Shown: piece after piece, positions 282 through 30,189 of the stretch
How positions within the stretch are numbered: position 1 is the stretch's first letter
How the letters are laid out: every line of letters begins with the position of its first letter
NCBI GenBank assembly: GCA_021767325.1
Contig: JAASTM010000001.1
Location: forward strand, 1-56,368
Origin: Spirochaetales bacterium
GTDB taxonomy: Bacteria > Spirochaetota > Spirochaetia > DSM-16054 > Sediminispirochaetaceae
DNA length: 56,368 bases
Direction: 5' to 3'
Position numbers and translations under genes: made by a program
Notes under the pieces: generated by a model
Databases searched by the model: none
What the model was told of the DNA's origin: nothing
What the model saw: only the letters and a program-made list of their open reading frames with translations

Positions 282-293
282 GTGGGTGAAGTC

Positions 294-325
294 CAGGGCG
301 GTAAATCGTATATTTACCTGCCCTG
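294..325 (+). terminator. Hairpin after proS
   Basis: CAGGGC-G-GTAAAT (294-306) pairs with ATTTAC-C-(T)-GCCCTG (312-325) around a 5-nt loop with one bulged T. It sits 13 bases after the proS stop. There is no clear run of T after it, so it may be a weak or factor-assisted terminator, or a 3'-end stabiliser. Confidence 0.5.
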
Positions 326-360
326 AACAATAGATGTGGTGGATAATTTAGTAAGATTAA

Positions 361-690: not shown

Positions 691-720
691 AGGTATTCTC
701 CTTGTTTAGTTTTGTTTATC

Positions 721-735
721 TTAAGAAAATTTTGT
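721..735 (-). promoter_or_regulatory. A/T box (copy a), upstream of the Gly/Pro-rich gene
   Basis: On the minus strand this reads ACAAAATTTTCTTAA, 13 of 15 matches to the box ACAAAAAATTCTTAA found elsewhere in the window. TTCTTAA ends 19 bases before the GGAGA of the ribosome site. Spacing and orientation match the other copies, so it is probably a promoter element giving a very short leader, or another leader signal. Confidence 0.55.
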
Positions 736-825
736 TATTTTAAGTTGTGTCTTCTACTTCTTCAGACTAATATGTACTCCAATAAATACATGTTTTGCTT
801 TGATAATTCATGATAGAATCTCCAC

Positions 826-11708: not shown

Positions 11709-11723
11709 ACTACCCTGTATCTT

Positions 11724-11774
11724 AGAATTGAATGGCGCCCCGGACAAGTACAAATTCTGCAAGCTTCTGACCAC
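11724..11774 (+). promoter_or_regulatory. CTTYCGAYCAC-like box upstream of the phosphatase gene
   Basis: CTTCTGACCAC at 11764-11774 matches the box before the RNA polymerase gene with one change outside the consensus. An A/T-rich inverted repeat, AGAATT (11724-11729) and AATTCT (11753-11758), lies just upstream, as hairpins do in the other copies, though this one is weak. The start codon is at 11811. Confidence 0.35.
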
Positions 11775-11810
11775 ACAGGATATTCGCACAAGTATATGCA
11801 GGAGGACACC

Positions 11811-15041: not shown

Positions 15042-18000
15042 ATGGCTTATCGGTTTATTGTCCGCGACATTTTGTCGCATCTCGATGCCGGATTGACAAC
15101 TCTGGAACACAACTCGACGATAGGAGAGCGTGTACAGCTTGACTACCAGCCTCCGGCGAAGGGTGCAATGCTGCACCGAGTTTTAGCAACCCGTAAAGAT
15201 TCGGGGGCGCAGCTCAAGGTTCAATTTTTATACGATTCTGAGGTAGAAGCGTTTTTCAGTTTTGTCTTTTCGCTGGGTAGTGCCGGCACTGCAGCTGGAT
15301 CAGGCCTAATGAAGAGCTCACAAAATGGCTTGGGCTCGGGGGGAGGGGGGAGCTCGAAGGATACTCAGTTAAAGAGCATTCGTCCATTTCTCTTTCCATT
15401 GCAGATGGTCGATGGACCGGGATTGGTGTGTCGTTCAGGGCGATGGCACTTCTTTTCCTACACACGTTTCGACCTGCTGAACGATCGACTTTGGACGCAT
15501 CTGAAGACCGGGACTCCCGCGTTTCAGACCTATCTCGGGACGGTGGGTCGGCGTAGACTTCACCATCTGTACTATATGTCCGGCGTGCCACGGCAACATG
15601 ATGATGACTTCTTTTACCACGAGGATTACGAGTTCGTGCACAGTCTGTTAGATGGGGGGGCTCTCCCGTCCGAATCCACGAGCCATACGCCGGAGCTTTC
15701 ACAGTTTCTGGCCTACCTCTCCCATCCGAACAACCTCTACACCAAATCATTTCTCGGGTTTGATCGGGTGATCAAAACTGCGATTATCGCATTTGCCTTT
15801 GATGGGCTGCAGATTCCCGTTACTGCCGGGCAGATAGGTGACAGAGAAGGCGGCCCAAGTCACTCCAAGGCACAGAGGACTCTGCTCTACAACCCCACCA
15901 ACACTCTCAACCGGCTGCGGGCCTATATAAGCAATGAAAAAAATCCCTTCTATTCCTATCACATCCGGAATAAGCTCACCGTTTTCGGCGAGTACGGGCC
16001 TCCGCAGGGGGCTAAAATGTACGCCCGCCGCATGTTTCATCCCTCTTATTGGGGTTTTATCGCCCCCTACCAGACTCCCGAATCGGAGCGCATCGGATTG
16101 GTTCAGGAAAAGGCATCCGGGGCACTCTATCGCGATGATGTGCTGTGGAATCGCTTTATTGTAAACGGCAGTTCGCATGAACTGAGCATCGACGATATTG
16201 TTGAGCAGGGCTATCACTTTCAGCCGATTGCCGCTGAGCAGGTCCTGTCTGCGGACTACTTCTACCCGGACAACGGCTTTGAAGCGGGGGCGGACGGGCA
16301 GGAGCCGGGTTCTCAGGCCAGGGGGAGCAATGACATGCAGATTCGGTTGGAGGATGCAGGCGACGGTTTCTCCGCCGTGTTCCGGCTGATTCCCTTCATC
16401 AACCACAATGATGCCTCTCGCTTGCTGATGGCGGTAAAGAACTACAAGCAGGCTCTGCCGCTCAAGGACGGCGAAGAGCCGGTGGTGAGTACCGCCGATT
16501 CCCACCGCTTTAAAGAGCACATGCAATCTTTCTACCACGGCCACGAATACGGGGTAAACTTACTGACTGCATATCTGCCCTATTACGGGTATAACTTCGA
16601 AGACGGTATCGTAATATCGGAGACAGCTGCTGCCAAGCTTACCAGTATACACACCAGCATCATAGAATTCTCGGTATGTCGGGGAGACCGGTTGATCTGC
16701 TCACCCGAGCACCGGCAGTTCACCCTCGCGATCGATGACGAGGAGCGCAGGGCTGAGCTGCTGACCGTCCTGCGCCGGCGGTATCCTGGGTTTCACTTCG
16801 ACCTGCGTGAGAGCCGCCTGAGGTGCAGACCCCGGAACAAGAGCAATTTTCGGCCTACTGCGGTGGTGAAGTTACCCGAGCATATCGGCATGGCGATTCC
16901 CGAGCAAGAGTATACCTTTATAGTACCGGCAGTGGAGCAGTTTCACTTCGGCATCCGCTTCGAGGAAGAACGCCCGGCGGAAGTCGGGGACAAAATTATC
17001 GGGCGGCATGCAAATAAGGGGGTAATTACCAAAATTGTACCGGAGAAAGAGATGCCATTCTTCGGCGCAAGGAAAAGGGTGGAGGTGCTGATCAACCCGA
17101 TGAGCGTGGTGTCGAGGATGAATATCGGGCAGCTGATGGAGGTTGGATATCGGAAGGACAATGCCCGAGTTCTGCCCCTGTTCTACGAGTACAGTGCCGA
17201 AGATTTCAAACCAACCGGCATTGCCGAGTACCGTGGGGGGATGGCCTTTCCTGCTACACACGGTTACCAGTACTTTCTCAAGCTCGATCACTGTGCCGAG
17301 GATAAGGTCTACTTTAACACTAGACCACGTAACTCTTATCTTGGGTATTACGTGAAAGGCAAGCGGAATCTGGGGGGAATGCGCTTTGGGGAGATGGAGC
17401 TCTGGGGGCTGCAGGCCCATTCGGCCTACGCGTTGACGCAGCAGCTGTTGCAGCGCTACGCCTACGAGGAGAGGCTTCTGCTTTCTCCGGTGGTGAAGAC
17501 CCTTGGATGGTATCTTTTGCTGCTTCATCTTCAATTGGAGGTGTCTAAGAACGGCAGTGAGTTCATTCCCTTCTACCAAGAAGAGCGCTTGCGCAAGACC
17601 GACCGGATTACCCACTTCCGATTCCGGCGGATCGATCAACTCGATGAACTGAAGAAGTACTTTGGAACGCAGATGCAGCAGCTGAGAACGATTTCTGAGT
17701 TCCAAAAACATGTTTCCGCTGGCAAAGAAACGACGGCTCCCGGGTATGTGCAGCTCAGCCAGCGCCCGGAGGCTGCTGGTGAAACCCTGGTGTCGTACTT
17801 GGAAGGTATGCCGGCACTGCTGGTGTTGCCGGGCGGCTACCTGTTGTCAAACCTAAATAAGAGCCTGCACGATTCCTTGTCTGAGACTGTGTACTATCGT
17901 GTGCTCACCGCCGGTAACCGGGAGAACCGTTTTTATCCGCTGGTGAGCCGCAAAGGTGAAGACTGGGGCTATAAGCTGGTGTCCGGGCTGATTTCCGGAA

Positions 18001-19904
18001 AGCGCGGATTATTGAGGACCCAACTGCTTGGACGTCGGGTGAGCTCGGCCGGCCGGGCAGTGATGGTGCCCGAGCCGAAACTTGCACTGCATGAGGTGAG
18101 CCTCCCGTCTATCTACGCCGAGGAATACGGCGGTGCCCGGCAGAGCTTGATGATCCGTTATCCGAGCCTTTTTAAGTACAATATTCAGCAGTTCTCGGTC
18201 AATGATCGATATGCGGATAAATATGTGGTTAAAGTGAACCCGCTGATCTGTTCAATGGTGGCCGGCGATTTCGACGGTGATGCCATGACGTTCATGGCCG
18301 CGGACAAGCTGTTTCCCAGGAATGCTGCTCACTTTACGCCGGTTGAGAACCTGTATCACGAGGGCGATGGATCGATCTTCCTACACCTCTCCCAAGATCT
18401 GACATATGCCTATCACCTGTTGCGCACCCACCAGGAATATAGTCTGCTGGCTGAGCGGCTGAGAACGGAGTGGCTGGCCGAGCTGTGCGCTCAACACGAG
18501 AATCTAAAAGATTTTGCCGAAGCTGCCCGCCGTAGCTTCGAAGAGCGAGAGAGCTATATTCGGTTCATGGAGCAGTTTGTGCAGGCCTTGTTCGAATACA
18601 TAACTAGAGATAGGCCATACACGGTTTCCATCCGAGACTTGGATGTTCCAGGTTCGATTGCAGCCACTCGACGGACACAGGTCAATCACCTGCGGCAGAT
18701 CATTGCCACTGGTGCCAGGGGAAAAACAACCCACCTTGAAAAAATGACTCGGCAGGCCTCGGGGGCGATCTACCTAATGACGCCGGTTGCAGGGGAAGCG
18801 CATCACGGAGCCAGTAATACCTGGGCGGCTAAGCTCGAGGAGACAAAGCATGAGTTTCCCCTTTCGACCTGTCTTCGGGATGGACTGACTCCGCGCGAGC
18901 TGGCCTTTTTCTCCAATGATGCCCGGGCCGGCTTGGGCGAGAAAAAGCTCAAAACCCCGGACGGAGGCGAGTTCAACCGGCGCATCCACGAGATTCTCTA
19001 CGATGTGGAGATTGACGGCCAGGAGACTGAGAGTTCGAAGAGTCCCGACGCGGTCCGCAGTGCCTGTATGGTAGAAATAAACCGATCCACACTTGATCAG
19101 CTGCGGCAGGCGGTGGAGGCAGTTCTTGGTGAACAGTCCGATGAACAGTTCCGGGCCAATGTATTGGGCTTCCTGCGCCTGCGAAGCTACCGCAATGCTG
19201 CAGGAGAGGCGGTGCAGCCCGAAGAGGCGGTGACACAATTGTATGGAGGAGAGACCGCCGATTACTGCCTCGAGGTATCCAGCCCATTAGCCTGGAACTT
19301 TGATGGTACTGACCGGATACCGGCTAGTTGTTTTGGATACCGCAATCATTTCGAACCGGATGGGTACACAGCCGGTGAGCGTATCGGCTTAATTGCCGCC
19401 AGCATTATCGGAGAACAGGGAACACAGTTGGCCATGAAATCGTTCCAGGGCGAAAACCTGGTACCGCTGGACATGGTGGGCCGAGAGCTTACCCGGGCCC
19501 TCGCGGGTGGCAGTGGAAAGAACGCGACTGTCGCCGGAGAGGCAGCTCCTATACCTGTCGGGGCGCAAGAAGCAAGTACCACTGCAGAGGTTAAGAGCCG
19601 GCAAACCGCGCTGTTGGCCCATGCGTTCACTATCTACTGCATCTATGGCGGAAAAGTTCGGCCGGTTTTCATCGAGCTGCTTCTGGCTTATCTCCGGGAC
19701 AAAACTGCGCCGGGCAGTTTCAACCCCCTCCATTACCACTCTCTGCCGTGGAAGGGCGGATTGTACAACCTGGCTTTTGGCTTTTTCCGGGACAATATCC
19801 GGCAGCTGTACCGCGAGGCTGAAGAAGGGCTGGTGGTTCCGATAGACGAATCGTACCAATATCGTCTCATGTTCGATCAGTTTGACGAAGAAGGAAGGCA
19901 GTAG
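15042..19904 (+). CDS. Single-chain DNA-dependent RNA polymerase, fused beta/beta-prime cores
   Basis: 1620 aa. Motifs of both large RNA polymerase subunits occur in order. Beta-type: GYNFEDGIVIS (516-526), GDKIIGRHANKG (649-660) with the two catalytic-site lysines K651 and K659, NPMSVVSRMNIGQ (685-697), and MRFGEMELWGL (780-790). Beta-prime-type: the catalytic loop GDFDGD with D1076, D1078 and D1080; a bridge-helix segment GARGK (1224) and DGLTPRELAFF...DARAGL (from 1280); and the trigger-loop segment IAASIIGEQGTQLAMKSF (from 1451). All key catalytic residues I can place are present, so it should make RNA. At 1620 aa it is far smaller than the housekeeping subunits together and lacks their large lineage domains and the beta-prime zinc ribbon. 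It is not the cell's rpoBC: there is no ribosomal protein context, and divergence is extreme. Two coupled genes follow. Confidence 0.92.
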   Translation: MAYRFIVRDILSHLDAGLTTLEHNSTIGERVQLDYQPPAKGAMLHRVLATRKDSGAQLKVQFLYDSEVEAFFSFVFSLGSAGTAAGSGLMKSSQNGLGSGGGGSSKDTQLKSIRPFLFPLQMVDGPGLVCRSGRWHFFSYTRFDLLNDRLWTHLKTGTPAFQTYLGTVGRRRLHHLYYMSGVPRQHDDDFFYHEDYEFVHSLLDGGALPSESTSHTPELSQFLAYLSHPNNLYTKSFLGFDRVIKTAIIAFAFDGLQIPVTAGQIGDREGGPSHSKAQRTLLYNPTNTLNRLRAYISNEKNPFYSYHIRNKLTVFGEYGPPQGAKMYARRMFHPSYWGFIAPYQTPESERIGLVQEKASGALYRDDVLWNRFIVNGSSHELSIDDIVEQGYHFQPIAAEQVLSADYFYPDNGFEAGADGQEPGSQARGSNDMQIRLEDAGDGFSAVFRLIPFINHNDASRLLMAVKNYKQALPLKDGEEPVVSTADSHRFKEHMQSFYHGHEYGVNLLTAYLPYYGYNFEDGIVISETAAAKLTSIHTSIIEFSVCRGDRLICSPEHRQFTLAIDDEERRAELLTVLRRRYPGFHFDLRESRLRCRPRNKSNFRPTAVVKLPEHIGMAIPEQEYTFIVPAVEQFHFGIRFEEERPAEVGDKIIGRHANKGVITKIVPEKEMPFFGARKRVEVLINPMSVVSRMNIGQLMEVGYRKDNARVLPLFYEYSAEDFKPTGIAEYRGGMAFPATHGYQYFLKLDHCAEDKVYFNTRPRNSYLGYYVKGKRNLGGMRFGEMELWGLQAHSAYALTQQLLQRYAYEERLLLSPVVKTLGWYLLLLHLQLEVSKNGSEFIPFYQEERLRKTDRITHFRFRRIDQLDELKKYFGTQMQQLRTISEFQKHVSAGKETTAPGYVQLSQRPEAAGETLVSYLEGMPALLVLPGGYLLSNLNKSLHDSLSETVYYRVLTAGNRENRFYPLVSRKGEDWGYKLVSGLISGKRGLLRTQLLGRRVSSAGRAVMVPEPKLALHEVSLPSIYAEEYGGARQSLMIRYPSLFKYNIQQFSVNDRYADKYVVKVNPLICSMVAGDFDGDAMTFMAADKLFPRNAAHFTPVENLYHEGDGSIFLHLSQDLTYAYHLLRTHQEYSLLAERLRTEWLAELCAQHENLKDFAEAARRSFEERESYIRFMEQFVQALFEYITRDRPYTVSIRDLDVPGSIAATRRTQVNHLRQIIATGARGKTTHLEKMTRQASGAIYLMTPVAGEAHHGASNTWAAKLEETKHEFPLSTCLRDGLTPRELAFFSNDARAGLGEKKLKTPDGGEFNRRIHEILYDVEIDGQETESSKSPDAVRSACMVEINRSTLDQLRQAVEAVLGEQSDEQFRANVLGFLRLRSYRNAAGEAVQPEEAVTQLYGGETADYCLEVSSPLAWNFDGTDRIPASCFGYRNHFEPDGYTAGERIGLIAASIIGEQGTQLAMKSFQGENLVPLDMVGRELTRALAGGSGKNATVAGEAAPIPVGAQEASTTAEVKSRQTALLAHAFTIYCIYGGKVRPVFIELLLAYLRDKTAPGSFNPLHYHSLPWKGGLYNLAFGFFRDNIRQLYREAEEGLVVPIDESYQYRLMFDQFDEEGRQ

Positions 19905-19905
19905 C

Positions 19906-20805
19906 GTGGCACAATATCAAAGACCAAATCAGATTCCTGTACAGAAAGAAACACAAGACCCGCTGCAAAGATTTGCCCTGCCGGGGTCGAGATTTGAGTT
20001 GGACGGGGAGTTTCTCTATGAACTGTTCGAACTCGGCTCCGGTTCGGAAGAGCAGGATGAGGATGAAATGCCCGATGATGAAACTACCGACTATACTCAT
20101 GCCAGTGACGAGGCCGAATCAGCAGGCCCTTCTTCGAAGTTTGAGGTGGTTGGAGAGGAGTTTTTTACCCACAATCTACCGCAGATGGCACATATTATTG
20201 CCAGGTCCGTGGAGGACATCCGGGTGGTGACCCAGTTTAGGGAGAGTAAATACGCCGATCAAGTCGTTGAGGATATCCGAACCTACCTCAGCCAAAACCA
20301 GGGCGAGATTATCAGTCTGCAGAGCCTGGAACGGGCAGAGCGGATACCATTGGATGATCAGATAGAGAGGGATAAATACAACGAAGTGCAGAAGAATCTG
20401 CTCGATTTATTCGTGTTACTGCCTAACCTGCAGGTCATTCGTCTAAAGGAAATCTACAAATTCCGGCGGGAGTCTAAGTTCGAAGCCCGCGAGGAAGAAA
20501 TCCTGCGGGCACTGGAGCGAATTTATCGGGAGCTGGAACCAATAGGCGACTTCAGCGATACAGGAGAGCTGTTTACTCTGTATGTGAAAAAGAGAATAAA
20601 AGGAGTAAAGGGGCATGAACCGAGTTGGGGCTTGTATGTGCTCGAGATAAAGCGATTTTTTGCAGCCTGTTACGCCCATGGGGCGTCGACTGTTGAGTAT
20701 GAAACAGTCGCAGGACAGCTCCTGCAGAACGATAAGAAAGACAAGATGAAAACCTTTTTGCAGCGATACGGGGAGGTACTGTGGCAGCGACTGAAGAAAA
20801 GATAG
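19906..20805 (+). CDS. Unknown protein coupled to the fused RNA polymerase (candidate cofactor)
   Basis: 299 aa from GTG 19906, one base after the polymerase stop, with AAGGAAGG at 19891-19898; a TTG at 19882 is the alternative. An acidic, unstructured stretch (about 45-80, with EEQDEDEMPDDETTD) separates a short N-terminal part from a mainly helical C-terminal 200 residues. No zinc site, HTH or ATPase motif is visible. The position suggests a polymerase subunit, initiation factor or assembly factor; that is inference from context only. The next gene overlaps its end by 25 bases. Confidence 0.7.
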   Translation: MAQYQRPNQIPVQKETQDPLQRFALPGSRFELDGEFLYELFELGSGSEEQDEDEMPDDETTDYTHASDEAESAGPSSKFEVVGEEFFTHNLPQMAHIIARSVEDIRVVTQFRESKYADQVVEDIRTYLSQNQGEIISLQSLERAERIPLDDQIERDKYNEVQKNLLDLFVLLPNLQVIRLKEIYKFRRESKFEAREEEILRALERIYRELEPIGDFSDTGELFTLYVKKRIKGVKGHEPSWGLYVLEIKRFFAACYAHGASTVEYETVAGQLLQNDKKDKMKTFLQRYGEVLWQRLKKR

Positions 20806-22226
20806 GCATTAAGTGTATTCTCACGCAGGAGAATTTCGACGCATTCGTACAGCAGATCGCCAAATTCGAGCATGGCCTAAAAGAGGACATCGAGCTGCAG
20901 CACGAACCCGAGACGCCGGGACCGGAATTTGTGAAAGACGAAGGGATCTACGTCGTGGATCGAGCTGAAATCATACCGGACTTTCACTTCTATTATTACA
21001 AGAAGTGTCGGCTGTACTATTTCACCTTCGATATGGCAGACACTGAAGAGTGGGTAAAAAATGTGTTGCTGGACGGTATCATTTTGAAATCGAGCGATAC
21101 CACTATCAAGACCTTTCTCGAAGATACCATCAATCATGAGTACCGGCGAAGCGAAGAGCGCTACATCAAGCGCATTGAAGAGTGGCTTTCGGTGGGCGGA
21201 GTGCCACGGGATACCCAGATGCTGACAGTTTCATTTGGAAAGATGCGGGTTATTTACAACGAGTTGAAGAAGTTTGTGGTGTATGAGCAGCTGCGTGACA
21301 AATACGACCAGCCCGAGAGCTTGGCTGAGTATCAACGCTTTATTGAAACATTGTATCGTGCCGATGCGGTTGTCGATACCCGAGAAAAGCAAAATACTCT
21401 GCATACAGCACTTCAGAGTATAAGTGAATACGAAGCGCGGTTGCGGACCGACGGAGTATACACCGTCTCCATCTTGCTCACCGGTGAGACCGGGGTCGGC
21501 AAAAGCCAGCTGGCCGAGTACTTCCAACAGTATCTGCTGCGGGGATTCAACCAAAGCGACCGAGGCGCTGCGAAAGGGCCCGCATCTACCAAACGCACCG
21601 GCAAGGCTGAAGGCAGCGGCCCGCGGTCCCGGCCGGACAAACTGAACTGCTCTCAGCTCAGCAAGGAACAAATCCGCACTGAGCTCTTCGGGGCAATTAA
21701 AGGCACCTACACGGACCAGACCCAGTCGATCCCCGGGCGAATACTGGAAAACGTGCTGAATGTGTTCGTCCTGGACGAAATTGCCGATATGGATCTTTCA
21801 CTGCAGCCGCAGCTTCTATCGTATCTTGATGACTCGCGGGTACACCTGCAGAATCTGAATCAGTCGGTGTATGCCCCGCTTATCTTTCTCGCCACCACTA
21901 ACCGCAACATCCCGGAGCTGATCTCCCGGGGTGAGTTTCGCAACGACCTGTATGAGCGCTTCGATCTTCATTTGCATATCCCGCCAATTCGGGAGCGCCG
22001 GGATGAAATCAAGCCTTTTATCAAAATGATGCTCGGCCGGGAGCGGAACCGCCATCTGCGGATCTTCAAGGAGTTGCACGTCAGTAAGGCTTTCATTGAA
22101 CACATAAAAGCCTACGACTACAGCGAGGGCAACTTCCGTGAGCTGCAGCGAATCGTGCGGCGGGCAGTTCGGAACTGCATCTCTCAAGGTCAGCGTATCA
22201 TCAAGATCGAGCACATAAAAGAATAG
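20781..22226 (+). CDS. Enhancer-binding-type AAA+ ATPase without the sigma-54 GAFTGA loop
   Basis: 481 aa from GTG 20781 (GGGGAGG at 20770). About 200 N-terminal residues of unknown fold precede an NtrC-type AAA+ domain: Walker A GETGVGKS at 235-242, ELFGAIKGTYTDQ near 301-313 where activators have ELFGHEKGAFTGA, Walker B VFVLDEIADM, ATTNRN (sensor I) and ERFDLHLHIPPIRERRDEI. The loop that contacts sigma-54 is therefore changed to GTYTDQ and should not remodel sigma-54. No C-terminal Fis-type HTH is seen. It directly follows the fused polymerase and its partner, so it may activate that polymerase instead, or act as a switch like RtcR or MoxR relatives. Confidence 0.83.
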   Translation: MAATEEKIGIKCILTQENFDAFVQQIAKFEHGLKEDIELQHEPETPGPEFVKDEGIYVVDRAEIIPDFHFYYYKKCRLYYFTFDMADTEEWVKNVLLDGIILKSSDTTIKTFLEDTINHEYRRSEERYIKRIEEWLSVGGVPRDTQMLTVSFGKMRVIYNELKKFVVYEQLRDKYDQPESLAEYQRFIETLYRADAVVDTREKQNTLHTALQSISEYEARLRTDGVYTVSILLTGETGVGKSQLAEYFQQYLLRGFNQSDRGAAKGPASTKRTGKAEGSGPRSRPDKLNCSQLSKEQIRTELFGAIKGTYTDQTQSIPGRILENVLNVFVLDEIADMDLSLQPQLLSYLDDSRVHLQNLNQSVYAPLIFLATTNRNIPELISRGEFRNDLYERFDLHLHIPPIRERRDEIKPFIKMMLGRERNRHLRIFKELHVSKAFIEHIKAYDYSEGNFRELQRIVRRAVRNCISQGQRIIKIEHIKE

Positions 22227-22278: not shown

Positions 22279-22306
22279 TATCCTCAACAAATCACAGGAG
22301 GTGTGT

Positions 22307-22771
22307 ATGAACAATCTCTGGTACGAGCGTGATCCACAACTGTTGAGTGACGAACAGCGGGCGATGAATCGCTTCTTCCCGCAGTTTCAGCTGGCGAAGC
22401 TGAATGATGGAAAGCTGGCGTGGGAGGGGGCAGTTCAACCAAAGGTGCTTGGCAACCATCAATGGTACCTGCAGGTGGTGTACGACCACAACCATCCCCA
22501 CAATAACGATTACGGCGGCTCCCTGCGGGTGTATTCCATCATGCCCGACTTAGATGAGTTGGAGGACGAACACGGACATTTACCGCATACTTTGCACGAC
22601 TCACGGGGGCACGTGTATCTCTGCACCAGCCGACCCAGCGATTTCAAAGTCGGTACTACCCAGACCACCGCTGCGGCGGCCCTCGGTTGGGCGATTAAGT
22701 GGATCGCAGCATTCGAGCTCTGGGCGAATGGTGACATTACCGAAGGGCAGTTCAGTGGCCATACGATTTAA
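22307..22771 (+). CDS. E2-like ubiquitin-conjugating-enzyme fold protein
   Basis: 154 aa from ATG 22307 with AGGAGGTG at 22296. The layout matches prokaryotic E2-like proteins: a beta-rich N-terminal half ending in YGGSLRVYSIMPD, then H...RGHVYLCTS with a candidate catalytic Cys at 106, then a helical end containing ALGWAIKWIAAFELW. In eukaryotic E2 the corresponding region is H-P-N...G-x-[VI]-C-L. Expected to carry a ubiquitin-like protein as a thioester received from the E1-like enzyme encoded two genes downstream. First gene of a ten-gene run with overlaps or gaps mostly under 30 bases. Confidence 0.75.
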   Translation: MNNLWYERDPQLLSDEQRAMNRFFPQFQLAKLNDGKLAWEGAVQPKVLGNHQWYLQVVYDHNHPHNNDYGGSLRVYSIMPDLDELEDEHGHLPHTLHDSRGHVYLCTSRPSDFKVGTTQTTAAAALGWAIKWIAAFELWANGDITEGQFSGHTI

Positions 22772-22785
22772 TGGTGGAGGATGCT

Positions 22786-24282
22786 ATGCAATTACAAGAA
22801 ACAGACCCACAGAAAGTAGTCATTTCATCCAAAGCATATGCCGCAATCATTGCCGAAACCTACACTCATCCGGAGAACGAGACCGGTGGTATTCTCCTCG
22901 GAACCAATAAAGAGGGCGTCTGGTACATTTTCGAGGTAATTGATCCGGGTTATCAACAGGTGGTAAGGCAGCGGGCCTACTTTGAGTATGACCATGTGTA
23001 TATCACCCACTTAGCCCATGTGTATCACCGAATTTACCGGCAGCCGATCGAGATCATCGGTTTGTGGCATCGACACCCGGGAAGTCTGGATACCTTTTCC
23101 TCAACTGATGATGTGACCAACCGCCGCTTTGCCGATATGCGGGAAGCCGGAGCTATTTCGGGCATCGTGAATCTGGACCCGGACTTTCGCATCACCCTTT
23201 ACCACGTGAGTCGCAGCCTTACATACACGGCAATCGAGGATGTGGTGATCGGGGACGAGCAGATCCCGCCCGGTTTCATGCGGCTCAAGAAAAAAGAGGA
23301 ACTAACACAAAGGAGGAAAAAAGTCGTGAGTGTAGAGACAGACACCGGACATGAACGCGGAGGTATCTTTGGCCGCTGGTTCTCCAAGCCGAAGGAACAA
23401 ACCTCCGATATCGATATCCCCTTCTCGATGGTCGAGGAGGAGATGGATGCGTATCTGGATGCTCAGGTCGATTACGCCTACTCGATTCGCCCTCGAGGGA
23501 ATACCCTGCTGGTGAGCCTCGAGTACCAGGGGCAGATGGCCGAATACCCGCGGAGGGTTGAGGCAGTATTCTTTGAGAAGGATGGAGAGCGCTACTGCGA
23601 GATCGACCACATTGAGCTGCCCTACCGCCGCGGCATACTGAAGGAGTACATACATCAGGCGGTTGCAGTGTACCAGGAGCAACTGGCTAACGAGGCCGCA
23701 TCTGAACAGGCCACTGGTCACTCAGCTGCCGGTGAACACCGCAACAGTCCGGGGGCTGGCACGAGAGCAGAAGAGGGCGCCACTGTCGAGCAGGAGGAGT
23801 TCCAGAGTAATGCGACGAGTCGTGCAGAGGAGCCCGGACCCGCGGAAGATACTGATCACTCCGCGCATGCAGAGCGGGCTGCGCAAGCTGAACGGGCCAC
23901 ACGCAGGGAACACACCCGCCACACCCGCCACACGGGACACGCTGAAAATACAGAACGGCGCCAGAGTACAGGGCGTTCAGAGCATATTTCGCAGGACAGT
24001 CGAGCTGCAGATACAGAAACCGAGATTGAGTGGGCCTGTGGCGTACTGGCAATCGAATGGACGGAATTGGTACAGCTAGGACAACAGACGGCCTTACGCC
24101 GGGCTCGGGATGCACGGGTGCAGATGATTAAGGACTATCATCCAGATAAATACGCTTCCGAAGGCAACGACCTGCTTAACCAAAGGGCCAACGAAGAGAC
24201 CGCCAAGATAAACCGAGCTTACGAAGTTGTGGTAAGAAGCCTGCGGGCTGGATATCCACAAAGGAGGGTATATGAGCGATAA
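22786..24282 (+). CDS. JAB/MPN metallopeptidase fused to a J domain
   Basis: 498 aa from ATG 22786 (TGGAGG at 22775), preferred to the ATG at 22771. The N-terminal 150 residues are a JAB/MPN+ isopeptidase: ETGGILLG with E32, then the full zinc motif HRHP...SSTD (H95, H97, S105, D108). The family removes ubiquitin-like tags or trims their C-termini. After a middle beta region comes a low-complexity linker (about 315-410) with RHTRHTGHAEN-type repeats. The end is a J domain with HPDK at 452-455 followed by INRAYEVV, the site that stimulates Hsp70 ATPase. The fusion suggests delivery of the peptidase, or its substrates, to DnaK. The stop overlaps the E1-like start. Confidence 0.88.
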   Translation: MQLQETDPQKVVISSKAYAAIIAETYTHPENETGGILLGTNKEGVWYIFEVIDPGYQQVVRQRAYFEYDHVYITHLAHVYHRIYRQPIEIIGLWHRHPGSLDTFSSTDDVTNRRFADMREAGAISGIVNLDPDFRITLYHVSRSLTYTAIEDVVIGDEQIPPGFMRLKKKEELTQRRKKVVSVETDTGHERGGIFGRWFSKPKEQTSDIDIPFSMVEEEMDAYLDAQVDYAYSIRPRGNTLLVSLEYQGQMAEYPRRVEAVFFEKDGERYCEIDHIELPYRRGILKEYIHQAVAVYQEQLANEAASEQATGHSAAGEHRNSPGAGTRAEEGATVEQEEFQSNATSRAEEPGPAEDTDHSAHAERAAQAERATRREHTRHTRHTGHAENTERRQSTGRSEHISQDSRAADTETEIEWACGVLAIEWTELVQLGQQTALRRARDARVQMIKDYHPDKYASEGNDLLNQRANEETAKINRAYEVVVRSLRAGYPQRRVYER

Positions 24283-25435
24283 AACAATACTCCGCCGAAT
24301 TCCCACAGTACACTATCCGTCTGAACTCGACGGCAACGGGTTTCACGGTCCATTGTACGGCTACTTTCACCCCGAGTCGCACCACTTCAATGTCGTTGAG
24401 TATGGTCGACGTACCGACCCGCAGTTTGCACTCCTGGGTGAAATCCTGCCGACGGATGCCAAAACCTCCGGCTCCGCTGACCAATCCGAGCCCCGGCTGA
24501 GTGCGCGCCGTGACGAGCATGGAAACCTCGAATTCCGTTTTGGTGGCCGCCGTTGTACTGCCAAGCCGTACGAGGCAAAACTGAACATATTTTCCCGCAA
24601 CGCAGGCATTCTCGAGACGGATGTAATGCTGCACACCTCGGTGGCTATTTCCGGCATCGGCTCGGTGGGCAGTCTGGTGGCGCTGGACTTGGCCCGCAGC
24701 GGAGTGGGGCGCTTCTTGTTGATTGACAACGACACCATGGAGTATCACAACATCTGCCGACACCAGTGCGGTATTGCCGATGTGGGCCGCTACAAGGTAG
24801 AGGCGGTGAAAGACCGCATCTTACAAATAAACCCCTACGCCGAAATCCGGACCTACATCGGAATCCTCGAGGACGTGCCGAAGGAGCTGTTCGACGAGTT
24901 TATCGATGAACACAGCCTCATTGTTGGCTGCAATGACAACCGGGCTGGCAACATCTACGCCAACACGGTGGCCTCAACCTACCGGGTGCCGTTTCTGGCA
25001 ATCGGCTTTTGGGAACGGGCCGCCGCCGGCGAGGTTTTTTACACCATTCCGGGTGAGATGCCCTGCTATGAGTGTGCCTTTGGGCGCGGACAAGAGCTCA
25101 GCGGAACACCGGCGACTACTGCCAACCGCCGCTTCTACACCAATCAGGAAGACCTGCGGGACGCCCACTTCGAACCGGGGATTGCTACGGATATCCACTT
25201 TGTAACCAACGTGGGGATCAAGGTTGCCTTAGATTTGCTGAACCGCAGCAACCCGGAGTACACCCCCCGCCTCATCGATGATCTGAACCAATTCACCCTG
25301 GTATGCAACTCCAACAAACCGAAGGTTGGTGGCGAGCAGGTAGAGATATTCGCATATCCCCTGCAAATCACCCGGTCCCTCGAGGTGGAATACTCCGAAA
25401 GGTGCTCTATCTGCACATCAGTGCGGAGTGCTTGA
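24272..25435 (+). CDS. E1-like (ThiF/MoeB/HesA family) adenylating enzyme
   Basis: 387 aa. After about 120 residues of unfamiliar N-terminal domain comes a Rossmann core with GIGSVGSLVALDLARSGVG near 128-146, LIDNDTMEYHNICRH and YKVEAVKDRILQINP, the hallmark E1 nucleotide-binding sequence. Cys pairs CYEC (near 268) and CSIC (near 380) form the structural zinc site common in MoeB/E1-like proteins. It should adenylate the C-terminal glycine of a ubiquitin-like protein and pass it to the E2-like protein. Start has an AAGGAGGG ribosome site and overlaps the JAB gene by 11 bases. Confidence 0.9.
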   Translation: MSDKTILRRIPTVHYPSELDGNGFHGPLYGYFHPESHHFNVVEYGRRTDPQFALLGEILPTDAKTSGSADQSEPRLSARRDEHGNLEFRFGGRRCTAKPYEAKLNIFSRNAGILETDVMLHTSVAISGIGSVGSLVALDLARSGVGRFLLIDNDTMEYHNICRHQCGIADVGRYKVEAVKDRILQINPYAEIRTYIGILEDVPKELFDEFIDEHSLIVGCNDNRAGNIYANTVASTYRVPFLAIGFWERAAAGEVFYTIPGEMPCYECAFGRGQELSGTPATTANRRFYTNQEDLRDAHFEPGIATDIHFVTNVGIKVALDLLNRSNPEYTPRLIDDLNQFTLVCNSNKPKVGGEQVEIFAYPLQITRSLEVEYSERCSICTSVRSA

Positions 25436-25436
25436 T

Positions 25437-25925
25437 ATGACGATTATCAACGAATACGGTGAGACGGTTTCGATTGAAAAAGTACCTTTCCGGTCCGTAT
25501 TCGATTTTGCGGTAAGCTATCGCGGTTTGAACAAATCCGAACCCGGGGCCCGGGCGTTCACCGAACGCTGGAGGCGCACCTGTTCGCAGGCGAGTTTCCG
25601 GGAGTTCGTCCGAGCCTACCAATTCGCCTTTAGCCAAGAGGGACTGGATTACGGCAGCCGCGCGGCGGAGGAGTTTGCCATCAGCTGGGTCAGTACCTTT
25701 CCCCGTTACTCGTTCGCGGTGTTTATCAACCTCTACCGGCAAGAACTGCGGCGCGGCCAACGACCGAAGGTGGAGGTACTCTTTGAGAAGCTCGAGAGAC
25801 AGTGTGTGAAAGACACACAGTACAAGGAGATTATGTATGAGCATGGTAGTCACAGTAAAAACAGAGATAAGGAACTACTCGGTATTACAGCGGATGCTGG
25901 AAAAAATGGAGCTGCACATCAGTAA
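25437..25925 (+). CDS. NxYGE protein with two 39-residue repeats
   Basis: 162 aa from ATG 25437, one base after the E1-like stop. It starts MTIINEYGETVSIEK, the same signature as the proteins at 3454 and 37707. Two 39-residue units follow (about 24-62 and 63-101), each of the form [FY]-x-F-A-x-S-x-x-G-[LM]-[ND]...A-x-x-F-x-x-x-W...F-x-x-F. These match the five repeats of the 37707 protein but are more diverged. The last 89 bases overlap the DUF1257 gene in another frame. The repeat family is not one I recognise; tandem helical units that bind a partner are plausible. Confidence 0.72.
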   Translation: MTIINEYGETVSIEKVPFRSVFDFAVSYRGLNKSEPGARAFTERWRRTCSQASFREFVRAYQFAFSQEGLDYGSRAAEEFAISWVSTFPRYSFAVFINLYRQELRRGQRPKVEVLFEKLERQCVKDTQYKEIMYEHGSHSKNRDKELLGITADAGKNGAAHQ

Positions 25926-26238
25926 GCGAGTTGCCTTTCAGCGAATGCTGCAGAACCGGGATCGTGGAACCTATGTGGGAACCGTCCATACCGCATCCGG
26001 GGAAGCCCTCTGCAATCTATATCAGCAAGAGGAGAAGTACACTCTGGTAGCCTTTTCAGAAGAAACGGATGACCCTGGACAAATTGATACCGTCAAGCAG
26101 CAGCTGCACACCCGGCTTGACCAGCTTAAACAGAACTACGCGGTGGAAGAGGTATTGGACACCGCCCGGCGGGAAGGCTGGAACCCGGTCAAGACCTACG
26201 AAGAAGATGGTACGATCTACCTGCACTTGGCAGTGTAG
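25837..26238 (+). CDS. DUF1257 (Ycf35-like) protein
   Basis: 133 aa from ATG 25837 with AAGGAGA at 25824. Sequence and length match the DUF1257 family, which includes chloroplast/cyanobacterial Ycf35: MSMVVTVKTEIRNYSVLQR at the start, a Tyr-rich middle and a C-terminal GWNPVKTYEEDGTIYLHL. Function is unknown. In other bacteria it is typically encoded next to a DUF2997 protein and a Ycf46-type AAA+ ATPase, exactly the arrangement here, so the three probably form one machine. Confidence 0.8.
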   Translation: MSMVVTVKTEIRNYSVLQRMLEKMELHISKRVAFQRMLQNRDRGTYVGTVHTASGEALCNLYQQEEKYTLVAFSEETDDPGQIDTVKQQLHTRLDQLKQNYAVEEVLDTARREGWNPVKTYEEDGTIYLHLAV

Positions 26239-26268: not shown

Positions 26269-26481
26269 ATGAAAACGGTAAAGGTTGCAATCGATAAGTA
26301 CGGTAATGTTGACATCGACGTGCAGGGAACCCGGGGAAGTCAGTGTGAAGAGATCGTTGCCCCGTTGATAGAACAGCTCGGCAGCGTTGAGTCGGAGGAG
26401 AAGAAGGATTCCTATTACCATCACGAACATATTCGCAGCTCACAAAACACCGAGATTGATACGGAGTGGGGAGGAGGTTGA
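26269..26481 (+). CDS. DUF2997 small protein with a C-terminal Gly-Gly-Gly
   Basis: 70 aa. The first 45 residues (MKTVKVAIDKYGNVDIDVQG, then GSQCEEIVAPLIEQLG) match the DUF2997 family: two beta strands then a helix with a conserved Cys. Function unknown; usual partner of DUF1257. The C-terminus is IDTEWGGG. A terminal Gly-Gly is what an E1-like enzyme needs, so this protein is a candidate modifier for the E1/E2/JAB set next to it. The caution is that the GGG codons (GGAGGAGGT) also form the ribosome site of the next gene, which may be the whole explanation. Confidence 0.78.
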   Translation: MKTVKVAIDKYGNVDIDVQGTRGSQCEEIVAPLIEQLGSVESEEKKDSYYHHEHIRSSQNTEIDTEWGGG

Positions 26482-26483
26482 GG

Positions 26484-27290
26484 GTGACGGCCCCGCGACA
26501 CTTCCTCCTCTGTAACAATCAGCACGGGCAGGGCGTGTGCACGCCACTGCACTACCGGAGTGTGCATACCAATCGGTTTGAGGTGTTGAAGCTGCAGGCC
26601 GACCTCTGGAGCCGCGATAGAGGGCTCCAGCATTATACCGGTATCCGCATATTCGATGCGGGGCTCTACCACCAGGTGCTTGCCGAAGCCGATCGGTGGC
26701 AGGCGGCCGGGAACAACCCGATGGAACACTCCCTGTACCTTTCGTTGGTAGAGGGGCTGCAGATCGAACTTCGGCGCTCCGGGTTTTGTGGAATGAAACT
26801 GCTGGATACCCAAACTCCCCGGCAAGAGAACGGACAGGCACGATCCTTTGATCGAGAGATTGGGGAGATATCGATCCAGTATGAGCTGGATACAGTTGGA
26901 TTACAACACCTGGCTGATTTCTACTTTGCGGTTCGCCGGCCGGCGGCGGCCTGGGTCGTGCTCCAGCAGGTGCAAAGAGAAACGGGGGACCGTTTTGTAC
27001 AAGCTTCCATCCAGGAGGTGAAGACCGCCATGCGCCGGCAGGTTGCCGAGCTGCTTGACCGGCTCTTTCCTTCCATAGGCGATTCTGATGTAGCTCTGGA
27101 AGAGGTGCCGGCTGCGGAGGTGTTGGCGGTACCAGTGGTTTATGGAGAAGGATTCTTTCGACAGAAGTTGAGAGGGCGCTGTGACAGTGAGCATATGCAA
27201 CAGTTATTTGAAGCCTATGAAGGAATAAAGCGCTTGAAGGCGGCCCTGCCGTTGGTTACCTATAAGGAGGTTCTCAATGTTACCGGATGA
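26484..27290 (+). CDS. Unknown operon protein between DUF2997 and the Ycf46-type ATPase
   Basis: 268 aa from GTG 26484, placed behind GGAGGAGG (26470-26477); a GTG at 26466 would lengthen it by 6 residues. It begins VTAPRHFLLCNNQHGQGVC and is mixed alpha/beta with a helical second half (LADFYFAVRRPAAAWVVLQQ). Cys residues are scattered without a CxxC pair. No family is recognised. It overlaps the ATPase gene by 14 bases, so it is surely translated with it and likely contacts it or the DUF1257/DUF2997 pair. Confidence 0.7.
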   Translation: MTAPRHFLLCNNQHGQGVCTPLHYRSVHTNRFEVLKLQADLWSRDRGLQHYTGIRIFDAGLYHQVLAEADRWQAAGNNPMEHSLYLSLVEGLQIELRRSGFCGMKLLDTQTPRQENGQARSFDREIGEISIQYELDTVGLQHLADFYFAVRRPAAAWVVLQQVQRETGDRFVQASIQEVKTAMRRQVAELLDRLFPSIGDSDVALEEVPAAEVLAVPVVYGEGFFRQKLRGRCDSEHMQQLFEAYEGIKRLKAALPLVTYKEVLNVTG

Positions 27291-28917
27291 ATTGCGTTAC
27301 TACCTGAAAGCACATACGCCTTTGGTATGGATTCAAACCTTCGAAGAAGCCCGGTACACCGAGCTGATTCGTCAGGCATATCCCGAACAAGTACATCGCT
27401 GGAACACTGCCGAAGGACTGATAGGCTCCGGAAGAAATTCCCAGTCTGCTCCGGTGAACATGTTAGAACACATCTGCGATGATGATTCCCCCAAGGGTAT
27501 CTACCTACTGCACGATTTTCAGCATTACATTGAGAACCCGAACGTAATCCGGCTATTGCTCGGATTTTCAGATGCAGCCCGCCGGAACGGAAGCAAGAGT
27601 ATCGTATTTATCTGCCCCGAGATGACGGTACCGGAAGAGTTAGCAAAAGAGCTGGTTGTCTATCATGCCGGTTTGCCCGGCTCGCGGGAAATTTATGCCT
27701 ATTTGACCCAGAGCGTAGATTATATGGTGCAGTCCGGCATCATTACCTCCGGGTTTGCCCGGCGCCGGGAATTGCTGCGCACTATTCAGCATCTCAAAGG
27801 GCTGACCCTGAATCAAATCGACGATGTGTTGGCCTATTCGGTACTGAAGCATGGCCGAATCGACCCCGAAGAAGTATTGCGACAGAAGACAGACCGTCTT
27901 TCCCACGAGAGTGTGATCGAAATCAAGGATTGGCGTCAATGCCCCTCGTTTGCACAGATCGGAGGGCTCCAACGTCTGAAGAGATGGTTGACCGACCGGA
28001 AAACGGTGTTTCTCGATGCCAGCACTCGCCAGTCCTACCGGCTGCCCTTGCCGAAAGGGGTGCTGCTGACCGGGGTACAGGGGAATGGCAAGAGCTTCAT
28101 TGCTCAGGCCTGTGCCCGGGAGTGGAAGCTGCCCCTCATAAGCTTGGAGCTCGGACGGGTGTTTCACTCCAGGGTGGGTGCTTCCGAGGCCAACCTGCGT
28201 AAAGCACTAAAGATAGTTGAAAGTATGCAACCGGCGCTCCTTTTTATTGACGAGTTCGAAAAGGGGTTTTCCGGAGTGCAGTCAGCAGGCTTATCCGACG
28301 GTGGTACTGCATCGCGGGTCTTCGGTACCTTTCTTACCTGGTTGCAGGAGCACCGCTCCCAGGTCTTTGTCATTGCCACAAGCAACGAGATTTCGGTGAT
28401 TCCACCGGAGGTTATGCGGAAGGGGCGCTTCGATGAGATCTTTTTTATTGACCTCCCTACCCCTTATGAGAGGACGCAGATTTTTACACTTTACCTAAAG
28501 CAACACAAGCTGTACCACCTGCTTCCATTGGCAGAGCGATGTGCCGCCCAGTGCAGGGGATACACCGCCGCGGAAATTCGTCAGGTAGTCGTGAATACCG
28601 TGTATATGGCAATTGCACGTAATGTTGAGGCTGATAAACAGATGCTCGAGGCAAACCTAAAAGACCTCATCTCCCTGAGTGTGACTCGTGGAGAGGAGCT
28701 CGAGCGAAGCCGTACCTGGGCACGGGGCAGATGTGTTCCAGCATCTGATCCTGAACCTTTAGCTGCGGGGGTATCCGATCATAATAAAGATGTCGGAAGG
28801 TCAGAATTCACTGATGGATTGGACGAAGAGCAAGAAATAAGTGGCGAAGAAGCTGAAAGCGGGTCAAGTGATCCCGTCAACAATCGAATTGTAGAGTTCC
28901 CCAATGCCAGGAGGTGA
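27277..28917 (+). CDS. Ycf46-type AAA+ ATPase
   Basis: 546 aa. An N-terminal 225-residue domain starting MLPDELRYYLKAHTPLVWIQTFEE is typical of the Ycf46 group of AAA ATPases. The AAA module has Walker A GVQGNGKS at 266-273 (with Gln-Gly-Asn in place of the usual Pro-Gly-Thr, as in this group), Walker B LLFIDEFEKGF near 319-329, sensor ATSNE and the MRKGRFDEIFFIDLP segment that contains the arginine finger. About 75 acidic residues end the protein. Ycf46 proteins are found with DUF1257 and DUF2997 in cyanobacteria and elsewhere; their role is not settled. Ribosome site AAGGAGG precedes the start. Confidence 0.87.
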   Translation: MLPDELRYYLKAHTPLVWIQTFEEARYTELIRQAYPEQVHRWNTAEGLIGSGRNSQSAPVNMLEHICDDDSPKGIYLLHDFQHYIENPNVIRLLLGFSDAARRNGSKSIVFICPEMTVPEELAKELVVYHAGLPGSREIYAYLTQSVDYMVQSGIITSGFARRRELLRTIQHLKGLTLNQIDDVLAYSVLKHGRIDPEEVLRQKTDRLSHESVIEIKDWRQCPSFAQIGGLQRLKRWLTDRKTVFLDASTRQSYRLPLPKGVLLTGVQGNGKSFIAQACAREWKLPLISLELGRVFHSRVGASEANLRKALKIVESMQPALLFIDEFEKGFSGVQSAGLSDGGTASRVFGTFLTWLQEHRSQVFVIATSNEISVIPPEVMRKGRFDEIFFIDLPTPYERTQIFTLYLKQHKLYHLLPLAERCAAQCRGYTAAEIRQVVVNTVYMAIARNVEADKQMLEANLKDLISLSVTRGEELERSRTWARGRCVPASDPEPLAAGVSDHNKDVGRSEFTDGLDEEQEISGEEAESGSSDPVNNRIVEFPNARR

Positions 28918-28922
28918 TTGCC

Positions 28923-29591
28923 ATGGAAGAACAGCTGGCAGCCTTATTAGCATCCGAAGAGAAGATACTCGCAAGCGTGCGCGGCCGGCTGGAACAGATT
29001 CATGGTCAACACATCTTTTTTCCGGCCCTGCAGGCAGCGCCTGTTGAACCGACTATATCCAAAACCCTTCAGGATGACAGCGCCATCGAAAATGAAGGCA
29101 ATGTTCATGAATTACGCCCCCTGCTGGGGCGACTGGTTCAAGCCTGCGAAGAGCAGTACCTGTTCACCAAAGGAATACGCTGCCCGCTGTGTGGCCGTCA
29201 GCAGAGCTCTGGTAGTGAGTGTGGGCAGTGTGGATCGCCTCTGGACGGGCAGGTATTGAAAAAGAGCATCCGGGTACGCCGGGTGGCGCTGGGTTTCGAT
29301 GCGTCCGGACCAACTGCCGACGAGCTTCGCCCGGGAGGGCGCCGATGGAAATCGGTACGCATCTTCGATCTGCTCAAGGCGATTGGTGAAAAGGGTTTTA
29401 CCCGCCGGGAGTGGCGGGCCGGAGCAGTGGTGCGCAACAGCCGAACCGAGTACTGTCTTAAGTGGGACGGTGCATGGTACCTGCTGCGCACGGACGGGAT
29501 GAAGATGCTGGAGACCGGCTCACACCATGAACTGGTGAAGGGGCTGTGGAAGTTATGGAAGAAGGGAGGCGCATATGCAGCCATGCAGTGA
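28923..29591 (+). CDS. Zinc-ribbon protein of unknown function
   Basis: 222 aa from ATG 28923 behind AGGAGGTG. A zinc ribbon of the form CPLCG...CGQCG lies at about 85-105, preceded by a helical 80-residue region. The C-terminal half has a segment that could be a small winged-helix (FDLLKAIGEKGFTRREW) followed by beta strands containing YCLKWDGAWYLLRTDG. Nucleic-acid or protein binding is possible. It overlaps the radical SAM gene by 17 bases. No named family is recognised. Confidence 0.7.
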   Translation: MEEQLAALLASEEKILASVRGRLEQIHGQHIFFPALQAAPVEPTISKTLQDDSAIENEGNVHELRPLLGRLVQACEEQYLFTKGIRCPLCGRQQSSGSECGQCGSPLDGQVLKKSIRVRRVALGFDASGPTADELRPGGRRWKSVRIFDLLKAIGEKGFTRREWRAGAVVRNSRTEYCLKWDGAWYLLRTDGMKMLETGSHHELVKGLWKLWKKGGAYAAMQ

Positions 29592-30189
29592 TAACCACAC
29601 ACCTGCACTGCAAATTCAAGCTCTCATGCCACATTCGTACGTGAACGGTCCCGGCCGGCGGACAGTGATCTGGGTGCAGGGCTGTCACTCACGGTGTCCG
29701 GGCTGTGCCAACCGATCCACTTGGGATATGAATGGTGGACAGTCGGCTACAGTGGCGGAGTTGGAGCAGTATATTATAGAGGCCGGACCAATTGAGGGAA
29801 TTACCCTCACCGGAGGCGAGCCGCTTCTGCAGGCCTCTCCGCTGCTGAGACTGGTGCAACGGGTAAAAAAATCAGGACTCACGGTGGTGACCTTTACCGG
29901 TTACACAGTGCAGACAATTCATGAGATGCAAGATACGGCGGTGTGGGACTTATATACGCTCTCCGACCTGATAGTGGCCGGTCCGTATGTGCAGGATCAG
30001 CCTCCAACCCATCCTCTAACCGGTTCGGGAAACCAGCAGATTATCTGTCACAACGAAGTGTACCGGCGCTATGCTCAGCAAAACCAGAGCCGGGCTTCCG
30101 GGGAACTGCGCTTCGATCAGAGTGGCGGCATGACCCTGACCGGTTTTCTGCCGCCATCGGCAGTCGAAAAAATAACAAAAAATTCTTAA
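29575..30189 (+). CDS. NrdG-like radical SAM enzyme
   Basis: 204 aa, with the 4Fe-4S cluster motif GCHSRCPGC (C37, C41, C44) in the context VIWVQGC, and LTGGEPLLQ for SAM binding. Size and sequence are those of the NrdG/PflA-like activating-enzyme group, which makes glycyl radicals or modifies small substrates. No anaerobic ribonucleotide reductase or glycyl radical enzyme is encoded nearby, so this copy must serve the operon. The target could be one of the small proteins, including the 54-aa peptide encoded immediately downstream, but this is not shown. The 3' end of the gene contains A/T box e. Confidence 0.87.
   Translation: MQPCSDNHTPALQIQALMPHSYVNGPGRRTVIWVQGCHSRCPGCANRSTWDMNGGQSATVAELEQYIIEAGPIEGITLTGGEPLLQASPLLRLVQRVKKSGLTVVTFTGYTVQTIHEMQDTAVWDLYTLSDLIVAGPYVQDQPPTHPLTGSGNQQIICHNEVYRRYAQQNQSRASGELRFDQSGGMTLTGFLPPSAVEKITKNS
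30175..30189 (+). promoter_or_regulatory. A/T box (copy e), upstream of the 54-aa gene
   Basis: ACAAAAAATTCTTAA, identical to copy d, overlapping the last codons and stop of the radical SAM gene. TTCTTAA ends 18 bases before GGAGG (30208-30212). That the box can sit inside coding sequence and still keep its spacing to the next ribosome site argues that the spacing is selected. Confidence 0.6.

Follow-up and report, generated by a model that had tools for sequence, protein, structure and literature searches.

The stretch of DNA analysed here (hereafter the window) comprises positions 1 to 56,368 of contig JAASTM010000001.1 (GenBank assembly GCA_021767325.1, forward strand), from a Spirochaetales bacterium. 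It encodes a one-piece RNA polymerase, followed on the same strand by a gene that we call p2 and by a gene for an AAA+ ATPase (lengths in amino acids, aa):

15042..19904, plus strand: single-chain beta-beta' RNA polymerase, 1620 aa from an ATG start, no internal stop
19906..20805, plus strand: p2, 299 aa from GTG, with a Gln-rich N-terminus, an acidic linker and a C-terminal core; same position as p2 of the relatives
20781..22226, plus strand: sigma-54-activator-type AAA+ ATPase, 481 aa (Sigma54_activat 5.1e-24; PADLOC RtcR_PspF2 1.9e-34)

An earlier note on this DNA had described one 1620-aa frame with beta-type and then beta-prime-type motifs, and the open reading frame (ORF), the Pfam matches and the motif positions all agreed with that description. 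The search it proposed for Rpb1 and Rpb2 domains returned four families over the Pfam cut-off (RNA_pol_Rpb2_6, 4.6e-29; Rpb1_5, 7.8e-10; Rpb1_2, 2.5e-8; Rpb2_3, 1.3e-6) and Rpb2_7 under it (0.00033). Beta-type motifs were located at positions 344 (QTPESERIGL), 516 (GYNFEDG), 649 (GDKIIGRHANKG), 691 (SRMNIGQ) and 782 (FGEMELW) of the protein, with AGDFDGD at 1074 and GEQGTQLAMKSFQGEN at 1457. The Asp triad of the beta' DFDGD motif (D1076, D1078, D1080) and the two conserved beta-barrel lysines (K651 and K659, in GDK..GRH..KG), which the note had listed as present, were invariant in a 29-row alignment. The residues before the triad are AG in the window protein versus NA in the housekeeping enzyme, and the trigger loop has Gln where the housekeeping TFH motif has His.

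Searched against the PDB with phmmer, the protein matched RpoB chains (best 3.5e-38) and, over query residues 1270-1471, RpoC chains (1.9e-17). An AlphaFold2 model of residues 290-1480 had a mean predicted local distance difference test score (pLDDT) of 73.8 and a predicted template modelling score of 0.80, with pLDDT blocks of 78-96 in the beta' barrel region. Its top Foldseek matches were RpoB chains (6.9e-24), in a comparison largely confined to the beta half (1-558 in model numbering). In the structure prediction suggested in the note, the beta half of the predicted paired-barrel fold thus matched RpoB structures, and the beta' half has the support of profiles and pLDDT. The protein fell below both NCBIfam cut-offs, with 142 bits for rpoB (cut-off 801) and 82 for rpoC (cut-off 963.5). 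We regard an RNA polymerase fold as almost certain, and these data support the prediction of a compact polymerase in which a single chain retains both halves of the active site along with many cellular motifs.

Among the best 120 of 970 protein-database matches, a single relative was close (69%, a 916-aa fragment); the next were fused proteins of 1409-2485 aa with 25-35% identity (P0003-P0022; P-numbers denote protein-database relatives and L-numbers the loci of relatives). An earlier pattern scan of genomes for close relatives yielded 73 pattern matches and no relative. The accessory enzymes carry the signature ETPES..IG with KN.KQA, versus QTPEGGNIG with NMQRQA, the general housekeeping form, in the housekeeping reference. 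Scanning one genome per species for the signature region, we obtained 64 matching stretches and found a relative encoded in 36 of them; these 36 loci are a lower bound because the window's own variant, VKNYKQ, falls outside the scanned pattern. Frames of whole polymerases range from 1251 to 2296 aa. Named carriers are Athalassotoga saccharophila NAS-01, Fretibacterium fastidiosum and Methylobacter psychrophilus Z-0021; others are metagenome-assembled genomes (MAGs) of Thermotogota, Synergistota, Nitrospirae, Desulfobacterales, Desulforudis, Latescibacterota and further groups. Three loci (L020, L030 and L031) lie in records titled complete, with A. saccharophila and F. fastidiosum among the organisms so titled.

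In a beta-half tree of 71 rows (made by a 'quick' method, with 8 of the RpoB-only protein matches taken in), a branch with support 100 separated the 11 housekeeping rows from all others; the window, itself on a long branch (2.01), fell with the accessory rows. Partial or duplicate polymerases (L007, L012, L018, L027, L034, L035 and L036) were left out, as were P0002, which has no beta half, and P0005, whose contig (32,032) has the same size as that of L009. By sequence, the window polymerase belongs to a whole clade of such enzymes and is more than the single case described in the earlier note. Housekeeping rpoB (TIGR02013) scored over cut-off in all 11 relatives' genomes searched, a set outside which L023's and the window's own genome lie, with the fused frames separate and under the cut-off; rpoC (TIGR02386) was likewise present in 11/11. 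The presence of both genes ruled out the fused enzyme as the sole cell polymerase in these 11 genomes, and the fused polymerase is very probably an accessory enzyme.

With the window AAA+ as query, homologues were found immediately downstream of the polymerase in relatives. An AAA+ profile detected a same-strand AAA+ gene in 23 of the 24 loci (out of 36) that offer at least 2 kb past the polymerase stop, and L026, with only 1.9 kb, has one too. In these 24 AAA+ loci except L014, the gene starts 0.5 to 1.2 kb past the polymerase stop, which leaves space for one gene between. That intervening frame, p2, has 179-379 aa in 19 loci, 473 aa in L022 and 296 aa in L006, and no separate frame was called in L031, L034 and L038. 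In L014 (4997-9121, an Ozemobacteraceae MAG) a p2-like part, matching the L022 frame by BLASTP at 8e-8, is fused to a sigma-54-activator AAA+ in one 1374-aa frame. The exception is L006 (5268-7473, a Desulfobacterales MAG), whose third gene encodes an AAA_5 (MoxR-like) ATPase, not one of the sigma-54-activator type. The polymerase/AAA+ pair spans Thermotogota, Synergistota, Nitrospirota, Pseudomonadota, Thermodesulfobacteriota and Bacillota, plus Ozemobacter. The transcription genes that the earlier note placed beside the polymerase are conserved with it, which goes beyond the note and is the core of our finding. That polymerase, p2 and AAA+ form a conserved three-gene module is in our view practically beyond doubt, and the predicted module is found in at least six bacterial phyla.

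Sigma54_activat was the top family in all 10 relatives' AAA+ proteins scanned (8.6e-43 to 4.9e-22), and no helix-turn-helix (HTH) or receiver family was found in these 10 at 1e-3. The window AAA+ gave no HTH family at E <= 1 in the Pfam scan and stops at the AAA lid; the aligned relatives stop at or shortly past it, L009 having a longer tail. A C-terminal DNA-binding HTH is usual, not universal, in bacterial enhancer-binding proteins. Mean pairwise identity was 0.19 in the N-terminal domain versus 0.40 in the AAA domain. The contact loop reads GTYTDQ in the window AAA+ versus the canonical GAFTGA, which occurs exactly in L028, L005 and L008 and as near variants in most others, the range extending to GSFTSS and GQATEI. 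Its G (position 1) and T (position 4) were kept in all 20 sequences of the profile and also in L014, L022 and L024, which lie outside that profile and count; the loops of L014 and L022 have lost the aromatic residue. GAFTGA is the contact to sigma-54, and a tyrosine occupies the aromatic position in some activators, according to the excerpted text of PMC7057263.

Several lines of evidence point to p2 as the counterpart of sigma-54. The p2 of L009 matched Sigma54_DBD at 3.5e-14 (53.3 bits, cut-off 22.8) over profile positions 14-160 of 160, and hhalign aligned it to RpoN at 97.6% over 302 columns, with Aquifex RpoN (5ui5) at 3.8e-9. When the fold of L011 p2 was compared, sigma-54 took rows 1-4 and 7 of 18 rows overall, as a weak match. 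An acidic stretch of at least 0.25 was present in 21/21 p2 proteins, the window's included, versus 5/167 control ORFs from the same loci; five RpoN proteins measured for the acidic linker gave 0.25-0.40, and the window linker has 0.425 net acidic residues per residue from residue 33. Set A5 and the acidic-stretch measurements do not include the L022 p2, whose frame overlaps the end of the polymerase, and the p2 of L031, L034 and L038 (no separate frame) and of L014 (inside the AAA+ frame) were not used. Across the family, p2 is probably sigma-54-like.

Other results weigh against this assignment. Pfam matches to Sigma54_CBD or Sigma54_DBD occurred in 1 of 24 p2 proteins (L009) and not in that of the window. 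With hhalign, probabilities to RpoN were 0.1, 0.5 and 0.1% for the thermotoga, desulfo and synerg groups, 0.2% for L006 and 0.8% for the window, and column shuffles (ten per group, five groups) reached up to 0.6. An RpoN HTH profile gave p values of 0.05-0.06 for L008 and L005 and 0.14 for the window. A motif profile anchored by eye gave the window p2 p values of 0.0195, 0.025 and 0.0515 in three versions, four window-family relatives 0.03-0.23, and the best other operon protein 0.051. PDB searches with p2 set A7 and with the window p2 did not find sigma-54. Just four close relatives of the window p2 were found; the sequence signal in this protein is weak, and we consider it likely to be sigma-54-like, with less assurance than for the family.

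The module could be real and p2 no sigma at all: another specificity factor, an elongation factor or an AAA+ adaptor, with the AAA+ remodelling or loading the polymerase in some other way. The sigma-54 family being absent in 23 of 24 p2 proteins, the weakness of the L011 fold match, the degenerate contact loop in the window and two relatives and the AAA_5-type third gene of L006 all fit such a module. It is unlikely, however, given that the L009 p2 resembles RpoN across nearly its full length, that the L011 fold comparison puts sigma-54 first, that the acidic linker is common to p2 proteins, and that the AAA+ is a member of the sigma-54-activator family whose loop is GAFTGA-like in most relatives.

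Host genomes bear on the sigma-54-like reading of p2. Sigma54_CBD was found in 8 of 11 relatives' genomes. The genome of F. fastidiosum (record titled 'complete sequence') showed no match to Sigma54_CBD or Sigma54_DBD. Of its four PF00158 matches the only strong one (7.2e-37) is the module's AAA+, and the other three (2.4e-10 to 1.7e-6) lie in frames of 655-886 aa. Of 149 Synergistota genomes, 14 gave a p2 match, weak and partial in two cases, and 8 of these 14 showed no match to rpoN. Among 103 Thermotogota genomes p2 was detected in 16 (one at 9.4e-4), 6 of them without an rpoN match, a figure that says little because the rpoN matches in this phylum are mostly weak and partial. In genomes of unstated completeness, a missing rpoN may reflect assembly gaps. 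There appears to be at least one genome in which the activator has no canonical sigma-54 partner, and this suggests that its target is p2 together with the fused polymerase.

We propose, with a probability of about 0.68, that the polymerase, a likely sigma-54-like p2 and the AAA+ constitute a self-contained, ATP-gated transcription system beside the housekeeping enzyme. In this system p2 would bind the one-piece polymerase and keep the complex closed at the module's own promoters, with its N-terminal segment and acidic linker taking the parts of sigma-54 regions I and II, respectively, as these roles are generally understood. An AAA+ oligomer would contact p2 via the GAFTGA-like loop and open the complex at the expense of ATP. 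Lacking a DNA-binding domain, the AAA+ would activate from solution or in response to a signal received by its divergent N-terminal domain. The polymerase would then transcribe a private gene set, the first candidates in the window being its own operon (E1, E2, JAB and the Gly-tailed DUF2997 protein). A conflict or infection signal is the trigger suggested by the HD-CE-type genes nearby, of which the Fretibacterium one also carries Cas_APE2256. The genes following the module are:

22301..22771, plus strand: E2-like conjugating enzyme, 156 aa (PADLOC E2 9.2e-18)
22771..24282, plus strand: JAB isopeptidase, 503 aa (Prok-JAB 3.8e-8; PADLOC JAB 3.4e-11)
24272..25435, plus strand: E1/ThiF adenylyltransferase, 387 aa (ThiF 2.9e-31)
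25837..26238, plus strand: DUF1257 (Ycf35-type) protein, 133 aa (Pfam 1e-4, barely over cut-off)
26269..26481, plus strand: DUF2997 protein, 70 aa, ending in EWGGG (Pfam DUF2997 2.2e-11)
27277..28917, plus strand: CDC48/Ycf46-type AAA ATPase, 546 aa (Pfam; phrog_8638 1.7e-94)
29575..30189, plus strand: 4Fe-4S/radical-SAM (NrdG-like) protein, 204 aa (Fer4_12 1.1e-32)
31110..34625, minus strand: HD-CE plus NACHT-like NTPase, 1171 aa (HD-CE 7.7e-15; NACHT 0.0016, under cut-off)

By spacing, the E2-like gene is in the module's transcription unit, outside the conserved core. The Gly tail of the DUF2997 protein, beside E1, E2 and JAB, makes it a candidate ubiquitin-like modifier. Among DUF2997 homologues, that of Bacillus paralicheniformis pBP1 ends in TGGE and that of Paenarthrobacter is without such a tail.

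The HD-CE/NACHT-like gene converges on the operon and matched a gene of L030 by BLASTP at 3e-5; in phmmer searches at 1e-5 it was unmatched, in both directions, with the relatives of the L030 and L020 HD-CE genes. The L030 gene (7060-9306, Cas_APE2256 plus HD-CE, Fretibacterium) lies directly upstream of the polymerase, and its homologues occur near the polymerase in 11/11 Synergistota loci. Homologues of the L030 or L020 gene were also found in L009, L020, L027, L028 and L040, giving 16 of 36 loci in total. Ten chosen neighbour genes were scanned against Pfam; among the HD-CE-type homologues these were the L030 and L020 genes, the HD-CE match of the latter being under cut-off. Not every locus has an HD-CE gene: ATP-binding cassette (ABC) transporter genes lie downstream in Desulforudis L005 and Desulfobulbaceae L008, and Methylobacter L016 has a TCAD9 gene upstream. 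The predicted functions of the neighbours suggest conflict signalling. More tentatively, and with odds somewhat short of even, we envisage that in many phyla the module would be a private machine, carried as a mobile three-gene cassette and providing conflict signalling with an emergency polymerase, beyond the reach of agents that disable the housekeeping enzyme.

To our knowledge, bacteria rely on a single cellular RNA polymerase and its borrowed sigma factors, and extra polymerases are phage-derived or YonO-like. With YonO of SP-beta and YonO-like enzymes the window polymerase shares a single chain, kinship to multi-subunit enzymes and a status accessory to the cell polymerase. The earlier note's separation of the two is upheld by the trigger-loop motif: for YonO, a protein of about 100 kDa, Forrest et al. 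2017 (PMC5467207) report no detectable trigger-loop homology, and they mention relatives in firmicute and other main genomes. Unlike YonO as described there, the 1620-aa window enzyme has RpoB/RpoC Pfam domains (Rpb1_5 included), p2 and an AAA+. It resembles the housekeeping polymerase with RpoN and an enhancer-binding protein in its beta/beta' catalytic motifs, in the Sigma54_activat AAA+ with a GAFTGA-like loop in most relatives and in the RpoN-like partner of L009, but it is one polypeptide with its partners in one operon, p2 is shorter than RpoN and lacks the RpoN signal outside L009, and the AAA+, unlike usual enhancer-binding proteins, is without a DNA-binding domain. The E1, E2 and JAB genes recall bacterial ubiquitin-like conjugation operons, such as type II cyclic-oligonucleotide-based antiphage signalling systems (CBASS) and their kin. 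Unlike type II CBASS, the operon has no CD-NTase among its ten proteins scanned, and unlike such conjugation operons in general, it is joined to the polymerase module and to DUF1257, DUF2997, AAA and radical-SAM genes. No such module appeared in the titles and abstract openings of the literature searched, where subscription journals and bioRxiv are thinly covered. The parts come from known families; we found no precedent for their self-contained assembly.

Alternatively, the polymerase could derive from a phage or plasmid, domesticated or still on a mobile element whose genes it transcribes. Phages are known to have single-chain polymerases (PMC5467207 and PMC7481178, as excerpted), and those of crAss-like and jumbo phages are likewise fused or split enzymes outside the cell's core polymerase (PMC7481178). 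AAA and DUF1257 genes resembling those of the operon were found in phages and on plasmids, and the guanine-plus-cytosine (GC) fraction is 0.49-0.57 for the island genes versus 0.45-0.48 for the core-type flanking genes. This origin is nevertheless improbable: viral-contig scans with the polymerase and with p2, which reach close relatives only, found no relative, matches to the jumbo-phage enzymes of PBS1/AR9 cover 5% of the query, GenBank phage matches cover at most 32% of it and are many of them housekeeping-type, no phage structural gene was found among the window ORFs scanned, and three relatives are in complete-titled records. Least of all do we favour a relic or regulatory decoy, a polymerase fold without RNA synthesis: His-to-Gln in the trigger loop and the fast-evolving window sequence are in its favour, but the invariant Asp triad and lysines and the long open frames, which still have their AAA+ partner in 23 of 24 loci, make it very improbable.

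If the proposal of a self-contained system is true, it would extend the known kinds of bacterial transcription system by one, a second, chromosomal polymerase travelling with its own start factor and an ATP-driven opener. Its novelty of kind hinges on p2 being sigma-54-like. In so small a system, the sigma-54 opening logic could be rebuilt from three genes, and with carriers among named strains and species the module is accessible to testing now.

Homologues of the window's operon genes also occur elsewhere. On plasmids, homologues of the CDC48/Ycf46-type AAA gene adjoin DUF1257, DUF2997 and 4Fe-4S genes, and one such set also had ThiF and a Prok-E2_D protein; the window E2 and DUF1257 proteins, as queries, gave no plasmid match. 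In L001 (B. paralicheniformis pBP1, 160535-178115), ThiF, Prok-E2_D, 4Fe-4S, AAA, DUF1257 and DUF2997 genes lie together. Among the other loci an E1 homologue was found in L017 only, where an E1/ThiF protein (289-1407, minus strand; 4.5e-10 to the window E1) shares a contig with an accessory polymerase.

In the same accessory region of the window, a second NACHT/nSTAND-type protein of 1325 aa is encoded at 43943-47920 (minus strand). A glycosyltransferase gene at 39267-40394 (plus strand), part of a glycosyltransferase/B12-radical-SAM/PIG-L cluster, has a GC fraction of 0.30 versus 0.50 for the window and is perhaps a separate acquisition. A 1394-aa protein encoded at 7695-11879 (minus strand) matched no Pfam family above cut-off. 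A tRNA-Asp call by ARAGORN at 12725-12813 (plus strand) sits within a metallophosphoesterase gene (11796-12947) and is probably a false positive.
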